From a bacterium (lineage in GTDB: Bacteria; Chloroflexota; Chloroflexia; Chloroflexales; Kallotenuaceae): a stretch of 55,293 bases of DNA. The DNA is taken from positions 1-55,293 of the forward strand of contig JADDQF010000051.1 in the NCBI GenBank assembly GCA_016781505.1, given 5' to 3'. Shown here one piece after another: positions 2,490 through 7,584 of the stretch; within the stretch, counting starts at the first letter, position 1; each line of letters opens with the position of its first letter. Position numbers and translations under genes: made by a program. The notes under the pieces are model-generated. The model saw only the letters and a list, made by a program, of their open reading frames with translations, had not been told where the DNA came from and did not search any database.

Positions 2490-2867
2490 ATGGCCGCCGT
2501 CCTGATTGTTGAAGACGAAGATGTTTTGCTGGACATGGTCGCTGCGCTGATCGAAGATATTGGGCACCGTCCGCTCCTGGCCACCAATGGTCGCGAAGGG
2601 CTGGCGGTGCTCCAAGCGGAACCTGAACCCCCGCTGCTGATTATCTCGGACGTTATGATGCCGCTGATGAATGGCATTGCCTTTGCCAAGGCGGTTAAAG
2701 CCGATCCACGCTATCAACATGTCCCGATCGTGCTGATGAGCGCTGCCGGTCATGCATCGCCGGAAGGACTGTCCGAGCATTTCGTGCCCAAGCCGTTTGA
2801 GCTTGAAGAGCTCGAACAGCTGATTAACCAATACGCAGACGGAACTATTTCGCGCGGCGCTCACTGA
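2490..2867 (+). CDS. Single-domain response regulator (CheY-like), first in KaiC operon
   Basis: This 125-residue protein is a complete receiver domain and nothing else. The acidic pocket (VEDED, residues 8-11), phospho-acceptor Asp54 in ISDVMMP and Lys101 in VPKPF are all present, so it should be phosphorylated by a histidine kinase. With no output domain, it must act by protein contact or as a phosphorelay intermediate. It starts the cluster and ends only 21 bases before the KaiC-like gene. The kinase encoded at 5530-7584 is the natural partner. No strong ribosome site is visible before the ATG. The 147-base gap upstream holds a short hairpin at 2382-2396 but no clear promoter. Confidence 0.9.
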   Translation: MAAVLIVEDEDVLLDMVAALIEDIGHRPLLATNGREGLAVLQAEPEPPLLIISDVMMPLMNGIAFAKAVKADPRYQHVPIVLMSAAGHASPEGLSEHFVPKPFELEELEQLINQYADGTISRGAH

Positions 2868-2888
2868 AAACAAACGGAGGAGACGGGC

Positions 2889-4384
2889 ATGGCTGATCCG
2901 CCGCCGCACCACACCAACGCCGATTCGCAGGGGGAACACCAGAATGGCGCACCTCGAGACTCAAACACACGGAAGATGAGCGCAGGCCATCCAGCCATTG
3001 ATACCGTGCTCGGCGGCGGCATTCCCCGAAATTCGCTGTATGTTTTGACGGGACCGCCCGGTGCCGGCAAAACGATCTTGGCGCAGCAGATATCCTTCAC
3101 TGCCGCCAAAGCTGGCTCGCGGGTGGTGTACTTTACCAACGTTTCTGAGCCGCACTCGAAAATTATCGAGCATATTCGATCCTTCGATTTCTACATCCCG
3201 GATCTGGTCGGCGACCGCATCCAGATGTACAACATTACCAGCCAGGTCCGCAATAAAGGCTTTAAAGAAACGCTTGATTTTATCGTCGATACGATCCGCA
3301 GCGAAAAAGTGGATCTGGTCGTGATTGATACTTTTCGCGGCCTTAAGCATGTGCTCGACATCAACGCCCGAGCGCGCGGCGCCATCTTTGATGCCGCTGC
3401 ACAGCTGTCGATTTTGGGCTGCACCAGTCTGCTTGTTGGCGAGTACACGCCGCTCGAAGTCCAGACCGAGCCTGAGTTCGCGATTGCGGATGGTATTATT
3501 CATCTGCGCCATGCCACCGAGGGGGCGCAAGAGCAGCGCTCACTGCGCATCGACAAGATGCGTGGAGTGCGCTACCTAGGCGGCGAGCATAGTTTTGAAA
3601 TTAATGATTCGGGCATTCGGGTGTACCCGCGACAAGAAAGTTTAGCGCAAGCGCCGCGCTACCGCGCAACCAACGAGCGCATTTCGACCGGAATTCCCAC
3701 GTTGGATCGGATGATGGAGGGGGGCCGATCCGTTCCAGCAGCACGCTGGTGGTCGGCTCGCCCGGCACCGGCAAAACACTGCTGGCCCTCCATTTTTTGG
3801 CCGCGGGCGCCCCTACGGGAGAGCGTGGCTTAATGGTCTCATTCCAGGAAAATCCTGAACAGCTTCAACTGCGCGCGAGCAACTTCGGCATCGCCGATTC
3901 GCTTGGACTAGACGGTGGGCTGACCGAGGTGCTGTTTTTGTCGCCGGTCGAGCTCAACCTGGATGCGGCGGCTGATCGAATCAGGGAGATCGTGACAGCG
4001 CGCCAGGTGCGGCGAGTGGTGATCGACAGCGTGGCCGAGCTCGAGCCGGCCGTTCGTGATCCCATGCGCTTCGACGATTTCCTGGCGTCCATGGTCGGCT
4101 TCCTGCGGGGCCATGAAGTCACGACGCTGATGACCCGAGAGATTCCGCAGCTGTTTGGTGCGGAGCTGATGATCGCCAGTCGAGGGCTTTCCTACATCGT
4201 GGACAATATCGTGCTGCTGCGCTATATCGAGCTGCTGGGCGAGATTAAGCGTTCGATTGGGGTGCTCAAAGCGCGGGGCAGCGACCATGACAAGCAACTG
4301 CGGGAATTGGTGATCGCGGGTGGCCAGATAACCATCGGTGACCGCTTTCGGAACCTAGCACGGCTGATGACCGGCATGCCCTAG
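2889..4384 (+). CDS. KaiC-like double-domain ATPase, interrupted by a one-base frameshift
   Basis: Two RecA-fold KaiC domains are encoded. The first has Walker A GPPGAGKT (residues 55-62) and Walker B-like VVIDTF. The second has Walker A GSPGTGKT (about residue 290) and VVIDSVAELE. The reading frame breaks between them, near 3716-3726. The first frame runs on to 3833 as non-family sequence, and the second KaiC domain continues in another frame (open from 3749). The break lies in a run of six Gs. Restoring a seventh G gives a smooth EGGPIRSSSTLVVGSPGTGKT-type junction and a 498-residue protein, close to the usual KaiC length of about 520. It is therefore a sequencing error or a recent frameshift. 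The SD GGAGGAG fixes the start. The C-terminus (KARGSDHD) is family-like. KaiB and KaiA were not seen here, so clock function should not be assumed. Confidence 0.85.
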
Positions 4385-4434
4385 CTTGTGACCGAAACAC
4401 CAAGTGGCGATGATGGAGGGCAGGGGGGCACCCT

Positions 4435-4830
4435 GTGACAGTGGGGCAACGGTTTGCAGAACGTCCGCCGGTCGTGCTGGTGATCGATGACGAGGATTAC
4501 GTTGCAGACATGATCGCCAGCGTGCTGGAGCTTGAGGGCATGGTGACGCATGTTGCGTATAACGGGCATGAGGGTCTGGCACAAGCGGAACGCTTATCCC
4601 TGGATCTGCTCGTTATCGACATCATGATGCCGTATATGAGCGGTATCGACCTGATCCTGCATGTACGCGCGCACCCGCCCATGCAGGATCTGCCGGTCAT
4701 TCTGATCAGCGCTGGAGCTCGGCCCCAAGAGCAACTGCCGCATGTTACATTTGTGCCAAAGCCGTTCGATATGGACGAGCTGGTGGAGCTCGTGGTAGGC
4801 ACGATACGCAGCGGAGGCCGGGTAGTATGA
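4435..4830 (+). CDS. Single-domain response regulator, second in KaiC operon
   Basis: This second stand-alone receiver (131 residues from a GTG start) has the acidic residues IDDED (17-21), phospho-acceptor Asp62 in VIDIMMP and Lys109 in VPKPF. It resembles the first regulator of the operon, suggesting duplication or two-branch signalling. It begins 50 bases after the KaiC-like gene, and its TGA overlaps the ATG of the B12-binding gene as ATGA. That points to coupled translation and close functional association. It carries no DNA-binding domain. The exact start is uncertain because a second GTG lies two codons downstream. Confidence 0.88.
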   Translation: MTVGQRFAERPPVVLVIDDEDYVADMIASVLELEGMVTHVAYNGHEGLAQAERLSLDLLVIDIMMPYMSGIDLILHVRAHPPMQDLPVILISAGARPQEQLPHVTFVPKPFDMDELVELVVGTIRSGGRVV

Positions 4831-5489
4831 GCATCGATCTGGAGCAGCAGCTGCGCGCCTTTATCGCCGCTTTGCGCACAGGCAACGAAGCAGCGGCGCG
4901 GGCGGTGGTGGAGCAGCTGCGGTCCCAAGGCGTTGCGCCCAGCACCATCTATTATGAGGTGTTTGCTCCCGGCATGATCACCGTTGGCGATCTATGGGAA
5001 GCGAATGAGCTGTCTGTCGCCGATGAGCACCTCGCTACCGAAATTACGCATCGCCTGATCGGGTTGCTTTCGCCTTCGTTTAATCAGCCGCCCAGCACGG
5101 GGGAGCGCGGCAGCGTGGTTTTGGGCTGTGTTGAGGGGGAACGGCATGTCCTCGGATTGCGGATGCTGGCCGACCTGTTTCGCGAGCAGGGCTGGCGTGT
5201 GTTGTTTCTGGGCGCCGATGTGCCCCAGGCGGACTGGATTCGGTTAGCGCTGCGGGTGAATGCCGATCTGATCGCCATTTCAGCCAGCGCTGAACGACTG
5301 CTCCCGCAGGTAGAAGCCTTGATCGGCGAGCTGCGGGCAGCCTTGCCGCAAACAGCGATCACGGTTGGTGGCGCGGTTTTTGGACGCAATCCCGAACTAT
5401 GGCGGCAGGTTGGCGCGACATTGTACCACCCGAACCCGCAGATGGTTGTGATGTTGGCTTCAGCCCAACGTGTTGTCAACACATCCTAG
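4827..5489 (+). CDS. Stand-alone cobalamin-binding sensor with CarH-type cap motif
   Basis: The 220-residue protein has a four-helix cap (about residues 5-85) and a B12-binding Rossmann domain (about 95-215). The cap carries Trp57, then nine residues, then Glu67-His68, which is the W-X9-EH pattern of the light-sensing CarH proteins that cover the adenosyl face of cobalamin. The Rossmann domain carries E105-x-H107-x-x-G110, the lower-ligand motif (E/D-x-H-x-x-G), plus a conserved VGG near 180. No methyltransferase or MerR DNA-binding domain is present. It sits between a receiver gene (4-base overlap) and a histidine kinase, so it probably feeds light, B12 or redox state into the pathway. Light sensing is an inference from the motif. 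Confidence 0.85.
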   Translation: MSIDLEQQLRAFIAALRTGNEAAARAVVEQLRSQGVAPSTIYYEVFAPGMITVGDLWEANELSVADEHLATEITHRLIGLLSPSFNQPPSTGERGSVVLGCVEGERHVLGLRMLADLFREQGWRVLFLGADVPQADWIRLALRVNADLIAISASAERLLPQVEALIGELRAALPQTAITVGGAVFGRNPELWRQVGATLYHPNPQMVVMLASAQRVVNTS

Positions 5490-5529
5490 CCCAAGCATAG
5501 TGCGGTGTCGCTCCGCAGATTGTAGCTCC

Positions 5530-7584
5530 ATGTCCCAAGATCGATCCATCCCGCCGCTGGACCCTTGGCCGGTTGAACTGGCGCAGGCCGCTGTTGCAGC
5601 GACCCACAATGTGCTGCTCACGCTCGACGCCACCGGCACTATTCAGCACGCGAATCCGGCTGCGCTCCAAGCGCTGTGCCTCCAGTTGCCGGCAGTGTGC
5701 GGACGCCACTTTGTAGACCTGTTAGATGTCGGCAGCCGAGCCAAAGGCCAGCGCTTGCTTGCAGACGTGTTGAGCCATTCCTCCACGGCGGTTGTTGAGC
5801 TTAACCATGTGACCGGCGACGGCAATATCGTGATGATCGGCTATCGCGCCTTGTTGCTGCCGCAGACCGCTGCGGGACCGCAGGTGCTGCTGATTGGCCA
5901 GGCAACCGCCGAGATGGTTGCCACCACCGAACGACTGATCGCCCTGAATCGCCGCTTATCGGCCCTGTTCATGCTCGCCGCGACCGCCTCACGTTCATTA
6001 ATTCTGCCCGATCTGCTGCAGCAAGCTTTGGCCGTGATCTTGACGGAGCTCCAGCTACAGGCGGGCGCGATCCTGTTGGCCGCCGTGCCGGTCGAGCTTG
6101 ATCGCGCCCTTCACGCGCCCCGCGAGCCGCATCAACTGCGGGTGGCTGCGCATCAAGGCTTCGCGCCCGCCTTTGTCGAGCGCCTGGCTGATATCGAGTC
6201 GCTGACCGCGTTTTGGAACACGACCACCCGCGCCGAACAACAATCCGTCGTGCAAGGCACAGCCGACGAGGTAGGCATGCAGGTCTCCGATCTCCTGTAC
6301 GCGACAGGACCCCTGCTGACCGTGGGGGCTACGCCGATCATGGCTGAGACCAATTTGCTCGGCTGGCTGTATGTGGTCACTGATCGCTATGACGCACTGC
6401 CGCCGGATGAGCTAGAGCTGCTGAGCAGCGTGGGCAATCTGCTGGGACCGCCCGTCGAAAACGCCCGCCTCTACGATGCGCTGCGCGAAACCAGCGGCCA
6501 GCTCGGCGCGGTTCTGGACGGCATCGACAGCGGGGTGCTGCTCACCGATCAGGACGGCCTGGTGCGCTATGCCAATGCCCGCCTCGGCTCCTTGCTGGAG
6601 GTCACGGTTGCGGAGTGGCCCGGCCAGCCGCGGGCCGACATTATGCGCTCGGCCTTGCAGCCCGTGACGCAGCACACCGCCCTCTTCGAGGGCGAGCTAT
6701 GGCAAGTTGTGGCCGGTGAGGGCCGAATATTACGGCGCTTTGTCCAGCCCGTGGCAGATCATACCGGCCAACCCCTGGGGTCCCTCGAAGTGTACAGCGA
6801 CGTTACCCAGCTGCTCAAGACGGATCAGCTCCGGGATGAGTTTGTTGCGGCAGCCGCCCACGACCTCAAAACACCGGTCACTGCGGTAAAGGGTTATGCG
6901 CAGATCGCGCTGCGCGTGGCCAGCAAGCTCAACGAGCCTCGCCTGGTGCAACAGCTCACCATGATCAACGCGCGCAGCGACGACTTAGCGCTGCTGATGG
7001 ACTCGCTCCTGGATATGTCGCGCATTCAAGCCGGCCGCTTACAGCTCCAAATCTCGCCAGTGCTGGTGCAGGATTTGGTCAAGCATGTGATCAAACATTT
7101 CGACTTCGACCTGCAGCGTAAGCAGCGCACGATCACCTGCCAGCTGCCGGACGAGCCCTTGGAGGTGGCCTGGGATCGGCACCGTATGGAAGGGGTATTG
7201 ATCAATCTGATCGGGAATGCGCTTAAGTACTCCCCCGACGGGGGTGATATTCACCTCTACGCCCGGCGCATCATGCAAACGGCCGACCAGGGGAGTGATG
7301 CGGTTGAATTAACCGTGACGGATCATGGCATCGGGATTCCGCCGGCTGAGCGTGAGCTGATTTTCCAACGCTTTTACCGCGCGCGGGAGGCCGTTGAGCA
7401 TGGGTTTCGCGGCACCGGCATCGGCCTCTACATCAGCCACATGATCGTACACCTGCACGGCGGCCAAATGCGGGCGGCCGATGCACTCCACGGTGGCCAA
7501 GGCACGACGATGCACATCGTGCTGCCCACCACTGCAGCTTCGGCGCAGCACGCTGGAGGTATGGAGGATTCCCCAACGGTGTAA
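5530..7584 (+). CDS. PAS/GAF sensor histidine kinase
   Basis: This 684-residue soluble kinase has a PAS-like domain (about residues 18-125), a GAF-like domain (about 140-310), a second PAS (about 325-430), then HisKA and HATPase_c. The phosphorylated His444 lies in AHDLKTPVTAVKGY. The ATP pocket shows the N box NLIGNALKYSPDGG, G1 DHGIGIPP and G2 GTGIGLYISH. No membrane segment is seen, so signals are sensed inside the cell. The frame is open from 5470, overlapping the B12 gene, but the ATG at 5530 (MSQDRS) begins 40 bases after the B12 stop and looks better. It is the only kinase in this cluster and the likely donor for the two receivers. Confidence 0.9.
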   Translation: MSQDRSIPPLDPWPVELAQAAVAATHNVLLTLDATGTIQHANPAALQALCLQLPAVCGRHFVDLLDVGSRAKGQRLLADVLSHSSTAVVELNHVTGDGNIVMIGYRALLLPQTAAGPQVLLIGQATAEMVATTERLIALNRRLSALFMLAATASRSLILPDLLQQALAVILTELQLQAGAILLAAVPVELDRALHAPREPHQLRVAAHQGFAPAFVERLADIESLTAFWNTTTRAEQQSVVQGTADEVGMQVSDLLYATGPLLTVGATPIMAETNLLGWLYVVTDRYDALPPDELELLSSVGNLLGPPVENARLYDALRETSGQLGAVLDGIDSGVLLTDQDGLVRYANARLGSLLEVTVAEWPGQPRADIMRSALQPVTQHTALFEGELWQVVAGEGRILRRFVQPVADHTGQPLGSLEVYSDVTQLLKTDQLRDEFVAAAAHDLKTPVTAVKGYAQIALRVASKLNEPRLVQQLTMINARSDDLALLMDSLLDMSRIQAGRLQLQISPVLVQDLVKHVIKHFDFDLQRKQRTITCQLPDEPLEVAWDRHRMEGVLINLIGNALKYSPDGGDIHLYARRIMQTADQGSDAVELTVTDHGIGIPPAERELIFQRFYRAREAVEHGFRGTGIGLYISHMIVHLHGGQMRAADALHGGQGTTMHIVLPTTAASAQHAGGMEDSPTV

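Follow-up and report, generated by a model that had tools for sequence, protein, structure and literature searches.

A stand-alone B12-binding protein encoded with a PAS kinase, two receivers and a KaiC-like ATPase in Chloroflexales: a candidate split sensor of light or cobalamin

What does a B12-binding protein sense, and to whom does it report, when its gene is placed among the parts of a phosphorelay and a KaiC-like ATPase? The question is raised by a window of 55,293 nucleotides (the whole stretch of DNA that was analysed; contig 107, JADDQF010000051.1 of assembly GCA_016781505.1) from a 4.18-Mb draft genome of the order Chloroflexales, from which records of Chloroflexus, Oscillochloris and Kouleothrix also stem. 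A sequence-only reading had proposed five adjoining plus-strand genes at positions 2490-7584, and this was borne out by open reading frames (ORFs) and Pfam domains, the genes encoding, in order, a lone receiver (REC1), a KaiC-like ATPase, a second lone receiver (REC2), the B12 protein and a PAS-GAF-PAS histidine kinase (HK). We lean towards the answer that the operon encodes a split B12 sensor of light (or of adenosylcobalamin), which would drive a relay from the PAS kinase through the receivers to the KaiC-like ATPase.

The B12 protein itself (4827..5489, 220 amino acids (aa)) contains, according to Pfam, only the two domains B12-binding_2 and B12-binding, in agreement with the claim that it has no DNA-binding domain. 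Both motifs reported from it, W-x9-EH and E-x-H-x-x-G, are indeed present (W57-x9-E67H68 and E105-x-H107-x-x-G110) and invariant in 12 homologues. A light response has been shown in proteins picked by the signature GxxW, EH, GxxH and GxxxP (PMC11796333), and all of these SignatureFinder motifs were found here, i.e. G54-W57, E67-H68, G104-H107 and G129-P133. Motif alignment places the codon of the cap residue Trp57 at 4995..4997, the EH codons at 5025..5030 and the codon of His107, the predicted lower axial cobalt ligand, at 5145..5147. The AlphaFold2 (AF2) model (predicted local distance difference test (pLDDT) 92) has a four-helix cap and a Rossmann fold, and its best structural match is the photocobilin SasPcob (8j2w; Z 27.6, root-mean-square deviation 1.6 A over 208 residues), with CtMerR (Z 23.8), CarH (Z 21.6) and AerR (7te2; Z 21.2) among the others. 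The fold alone is undecisive, since a methylamine corrinoid protein (3ezx) also scores Z 24.4; by sequence, the nearest solved proteins are photocobilins (34%) and CtMerR, then CarH. Of the CarH-type light-sensing site that had been proposed, the pocket stands, together with the four signature elements and the photocobilin match, but the counterpart of CarH His132 does not, as Trp57 is followed by Glu58, which is invariant in five orthologues. Because of this Glu, the bis-His light state of CarH, to judge from the residue, cannot form here, and the photochemistry would be photocobilin- or CtMerR-like. The position is a variable one, being Arg in CtMerR and Gln or Tyr in photocobilins (PMC11796333). 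CarH proper was rejected on these grounds, i.e. the Glu and the missing MerR-type DNA-binding domain.

Whether light is the input has to be weighed against another reading of the same relay, in which the B12 protein follows the level of cobalamin or adenosylcobalamin, or the redox or oxygen state of the cofactor, a reading that we regard as unlikely. The signature is a signature of the pocket, the CarH bis-His state appears impossible, no photosynthetic reaction centre was found in the organism's own genome, and homologues occur in anaerobic or sediment lineages (among them Lokiarchaeota, Cloacimonadota and Methanofastidiosum). On the other side, CtMerR and photocobilins respond to light without a His after the Trp (PMC11796333), and the genome, in which an adenosyltransferase is also present, has retained a CarH-like gene next to that of phytoene synthase, a usual light-response pair. 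The CarH-like gene (C80, L078:2282-4277) is a MerR-B12 gene with His after the Trp, and together with phytoene synthase it is probably a classic light-controlled carotenoid switch. A CarH-like MerR-B12 gene was also observed in a phototrophic member of this family (f1), G004, where it adjoins a fused pufL-pufM reaction-centre gene (C94, L079:4635-5864).

To whom the sensor would report is suggested by the kinase (5530..7584, 684 aa; PAS1-GAF-PAS2-HisKA-HATPase_c by Pfam), for which 5530 is a better start than 5470. A hidden Markov model (HMM) was built from 40 domains of B12-adjacent kinases of other lineages, none of them from f1, and it recognizes the PAS1 region (5575..5916; 33.7 bits, E 8.5e-9), with no score for the PAS2 and GAF domains of the same kinase. 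All 19 deduplicated held-out ORF matches were situated no more than 150 bp from a B12 gene, the other 5,639 ORFs, among them those of 58 kaiB neighborhoods, gave no score, and leave-one-out recovered 33 of the 40 domains, the kinase PAS of locus L142 (see below) being among those lost. The loci of this test were mostly picked around B12 genes, and a whole-genome test therefore matters; it gave 17 matches in 100 genomes, of which the five near-full-domain matches were all close to a B12 gene. The subfamily domain has a PAS fold (model pLDDT 93.5; PAS-B Z 12.6), and the N-terminal domains of the B12-adjacent kinases are homologous to each other, the two that were scanned having no Pfam match there. 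The PAS1 type appears to be nearly confined to the neighborhood of such B12 proteins.

Out of 80 loci of B12 relatives, 77 had downstream room, and in 46 of these a kinase was found directly 3' of the B12 gene. The bacterial records of such pairs are distributed over Chloroflexota, Acidobacteriota, Gemmatimonadota, Bacteroidota, Cloacimonadota, Armatimonadota, Spirochaetota, Desulfobacterota, Bacillota and Pseudomonadota, and the archaeal ones over Lokiarchaeota and Methanofastidiosum. The view that the parts of the operon rarely sit together consequently holds for the whole set only, as B12-kinase pairs are widespread and clusters of KaiC, receivers and kinases recur in the same genome. Besides histidine kinases, the outputs attached to B12-adjacent PAS domains of the subfamily include GGDEF and STAS domains. 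The GGDEF protein (L206:833-2985; PAS 74.9 bits) directly follows a B12 gene, with kaiB-kaiC about 5 kb off, and the STAS fusion belongs to one of four Chloroflexaceae clusters with the order PAS ORF, B12, PAS ORF (L050:7542-8468, with the fusion, L056:4179-6144, L055:11776-13775 and L041:6315-8322). The pairing of sensor and kinase is well supported, and the output is what we infer.

Conservation in relatives was a check named beforehand, and the set proved to be kept, also in a different genus, so that the proposal was not refuted by this check. The full order REC1-KaiC-REC2-B12-HK is found in G003 as well as in G005, which is of another genus of f1, and G001, which like G002 belongs to the genus of the source organism, keeps it from the C-terminal KaiC domain onward, its contig beginning inside kaiC. 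In G002 a clean deletion has removed KaiC together with residues 1-36 of REC2, leaving REC1, the truncated REC2, B12 and kinase; a 5-base repeat, GCATG, marks the joint (L038:8040-8760). The operon is absent from the phototroph G004, and G012, of another family, has REC-KaiC-REC without B12, followed by an unrelated gene. With the set kept in a different genus and the receiver-KaiC-receiver block in a different family, the gene order seems to be more than chance. Since REC-KaiC-REC is found without B12, and many phyla have B12-kinase pairs but no KaiC with them, the operon is, as far as gene content tells, made up of two separable modules that were joined in f1.

The "double KaiC-like ATPase" of the sequence-only reading has both KaiC-family domains within 2889-4384, but here they lie in two frames instead of a single ORF. 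The N-terminal domain (2889..3833; Pfam KaiC 5e-35) ends early through a frameshift, and the C-terminal domain (3716..4384; Pfam KaiC 2e-32) continues one base apart, the shift being located at a G6 run (3719..3724) that is one base short of the intact frame of the relatives. Intact single ORFs of about 500 aa are present in G003, G005 and G012 (67-74% identity, G012 having 67%), and against the intact G003 protein the N- and C-terminal domains of the window show 74% and 80% identity, respectively. The run at 3719-3725 reads in register G_GGG_GGC, a -1 slippery heptamer, and slippage would restore the conserved EGGPIRSSS. In the relatives checked, however, the frame at the joint is ordinary, and an error of sequencing or a recent mutation is therefore a simpler cause than slippage.

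A number of observations weigh against the proposed relay. The flanking genes are syntenic too, so part of the conserved order is background synteny and order alone is weak evidence, weaker than the separate occurrence of REC-KaiC-REC and of B12-kinase pairs. Several weaker whole-genome PAS matches are not near a B12 gene (some contigs list none), the PAS1 scores of the f1 kinases are modest (12-34 bits, 12-19 for those other than the window kinase), and a narrower PAS model, A4, gave no match in the f1 genomes at E 0.01, the window kinase included, for which reason PAS1 was assigned by means of the broader HMM of 40 sequences. Light is also doubtful in the sediment and anaerobic lineages with homologues of the B12 protein. 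Furthermore, the frameshift of KaiC in the window and its deletion from G002 may mean that some members have a relay in decay. That the operon as a whole is decaying or non-functional in this lineage, as the frameshift and the G002 deletion at the GCATG repeat could suggest, we judge improbable: REC1, B12 and HK show no damage in the parts that are covered, G003, G005 and G012 have an intact KaiC, and assembly errors can give rise to an indel in a homopolymer.

Another way to read a double KaiC architecture next to a B12 gene is that a B12 photoreceptor entrains a diverged Kai system, be it a clock or an hourglass timer, and KaiB-KaiC operons with a B12 gene and a kinase do exist (L142, L136 and L126, see below). 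The residues of the window protein make this quite improbable. While its Walker A motifs are intact (GSPGTGKT in the C-terminal domain), alignment shows the catalytic Glu pairs to be missing, with VSEP in CI against FEE[ST] and QEN in CII against FEES of clock KaiC, Gln thereby occupying the position of Glu318. The phosphosites Ser431/Thr432 are Ser-Tyr, i.e. Thr432 is replaced by Tyr, and the C-terminal tail is absent. KaiB was found in none of six family genomes (the organism's own and five f1 members), where drafts may be incomplete; the S. elongatus control was positive. Clock KaiC was rejected on these features, and with no clock residues and no KaiB there is probably no clock; the window ATPase is most likely a non-clock KaiC-like output. 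The idea that chance brought an MtaC/MttC/MtbC-like subunit of a corrinoid methyltransferase into the operon as its B12 protein agrees with the two-domain fold, the length and the Z 24.4 of 3ezx, but is very improbable, and was rejected on the features tested, since no cognate methyltransferase gene is present in or beside the operon, the light-response signature is complete, photocobilins are the best matches in sequence and structure, and relatives are tied to kinases in many phyla.

The favored B12-to-KaiC relay can be laid out in steps on the basis of what the sequence offers directly, i.e. the gene set and its conservation, the pocket residues, the fold, the PAS subfamily, the phosphorelay motifs and the separability of the modules. 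The B12 protein would bind adenosylcobalamin, and light or the loss of adenosylcobalamin would alter its shape or oligomer state. It would then dock on PAS1 and the following helix of the kinase and thereby set kinase activity, in the manner of AerR or the AppA SCHIC domain at the PAS-helix region of CrtJ/PpsR. AppA SCHIC binds PpsR on the helix after the N-terminal PAS (PMC9144470), a contact that offers a structural precedent for the B12-PAS pairing. Phosphotransfer from the kinase to REC1 and REC2 would follow, and the receivers would bind the KaiC-like double ATPase and alter its nucleotide state or partner binding. The sequence features of a two-component phosphorelay are in place (Pfam HisKA, HATPase_c and two Response_reg domains, and motifs), the kinase having its H (AHDLKTPV), N and G boxes intact and the receivers their Asp and Lys.

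B12 genes were also observed with true Kai genes. In Chloroflexaceae (L142:1023-5457; KaiB Pfam 1e-27) and Anaerolineae (L136:129-6744) the order is B12-HK-KaiA3like-KaiB-KaiC, and in Bryobacteraceae (Acidobacteriota; L126:3217-7735) KaiC-KaiB-KaiA3like is divergent from B12-HK. These three are candidates for B12 light input to real Kai systems. They are rare and not the rule, given that only one of 58 kaiB neighborhoods sampled in the phylum (L206) had a nearby B12 gene, which by estimate is about chance. No paper joining B12 photoreceptors with Kai was found in the open-access literature searched, and an earlier account of B12-kinase pairs is possible. We tentatively suggest that a B12 photoreceptor with its dedicated PAS kinase may be a portable light-input module that was plugged into KaiC systems several times, namely into the window relay and the clock operons L142, L136 and L126.

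The known B12 photoreceptors target DNA or a PAS transcription factor or work through fused enzymes, and what is new here is the joining of two portable modules. The photocobilins SasPcob and AbDPcob (PMC10979010) are closest in sequence and structure and share the Trp, the Glu-His and the lower-axial His, and their stand-alone forms can work through protein contact. In contrast to these, the window protein ends after the B12 fold, without a globin or biliverdin domain, and has a PAS kinase and a KaiC-like relay as its partners. CarH and CtMerR (PMC4557120, PMC11796333) have the same B12 fold and four motifs but also the MerR domain that the window protein lacks, CarH in addition having His132 where Glu is found here. 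The pairs of AerR/PpaA or AppA SCHIC with CrtJ/PpsR (PMC9144470) likewise join a lone B12-type domain with the PAS protein that it acts on, the domain being encoded, in AerR, beside its partner as here, although the partner in the window is a histidine kinase and not a PAS-HTH transcription factor, and the AerR cap has W94/F101. KaiC-family double ATPases near receivers and kinases are also found in the KaiA3-KaiB-KaiC operons of Chloroflexales (PMC11372060), unlike which the window set is devoid of KaiB, a KaiA-like domain and clock residues. Links between KaiC-family ATPases and two-component parts, receivers included, are known from archaea (PMC5847659), whereas the window set is bacterial and has separate receivers and a B12 sensor.

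If the relay is real, a split B12 sensor with a specific PAS domain (on kinases, cyclases or STAS proteins) would constitute a general, re-wirable light or cobalamin input in bacteria and archaea, and a ready optogenetic part. B12 sensors meeting KaiC-type ATPases, also in KaiB-KaiC operons, would likewise be a concrete candidate for the way in which light reaches Kai systems outside cyanobacteria, a question still open. The host is a non-photosynthetic member of Chloroflexota, and its stand-alone B12 domain shows all the markers that have been published for light sensors.

As for the remaining features, the predicted coupling of REC2 and the B12 gene through a shared ATGA is exact (4827-4830), the gaps in operon order being 21, 50, -4 and 40 bases. 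A promoter and terminator scan gave no signal above shuffles. REC1 (2490..2867, 125 aa; Pfam Response_reg 6e-15) has its acidic pocket, phospho-Asp and Lys all present and has orthologues in G002, G003 and G005, and a weaker one (42%) in G012; REC2 (4435..4830, 131 aa; Pfam Response_reg 6e-20) also has orthologues in relatives. The genome holds four further double KaiC-like proteins, two of which adjoin receivers and kinases (L073:4408-8855 and L076:1141-6710). In L073, a 132-aa protein without Pfam match precedes kaiC, and a masked gap lies inside a second kaiC. The neighbors of the B12 gene encode receivers, a kinase, HtpG and a Trx-TPR protein.

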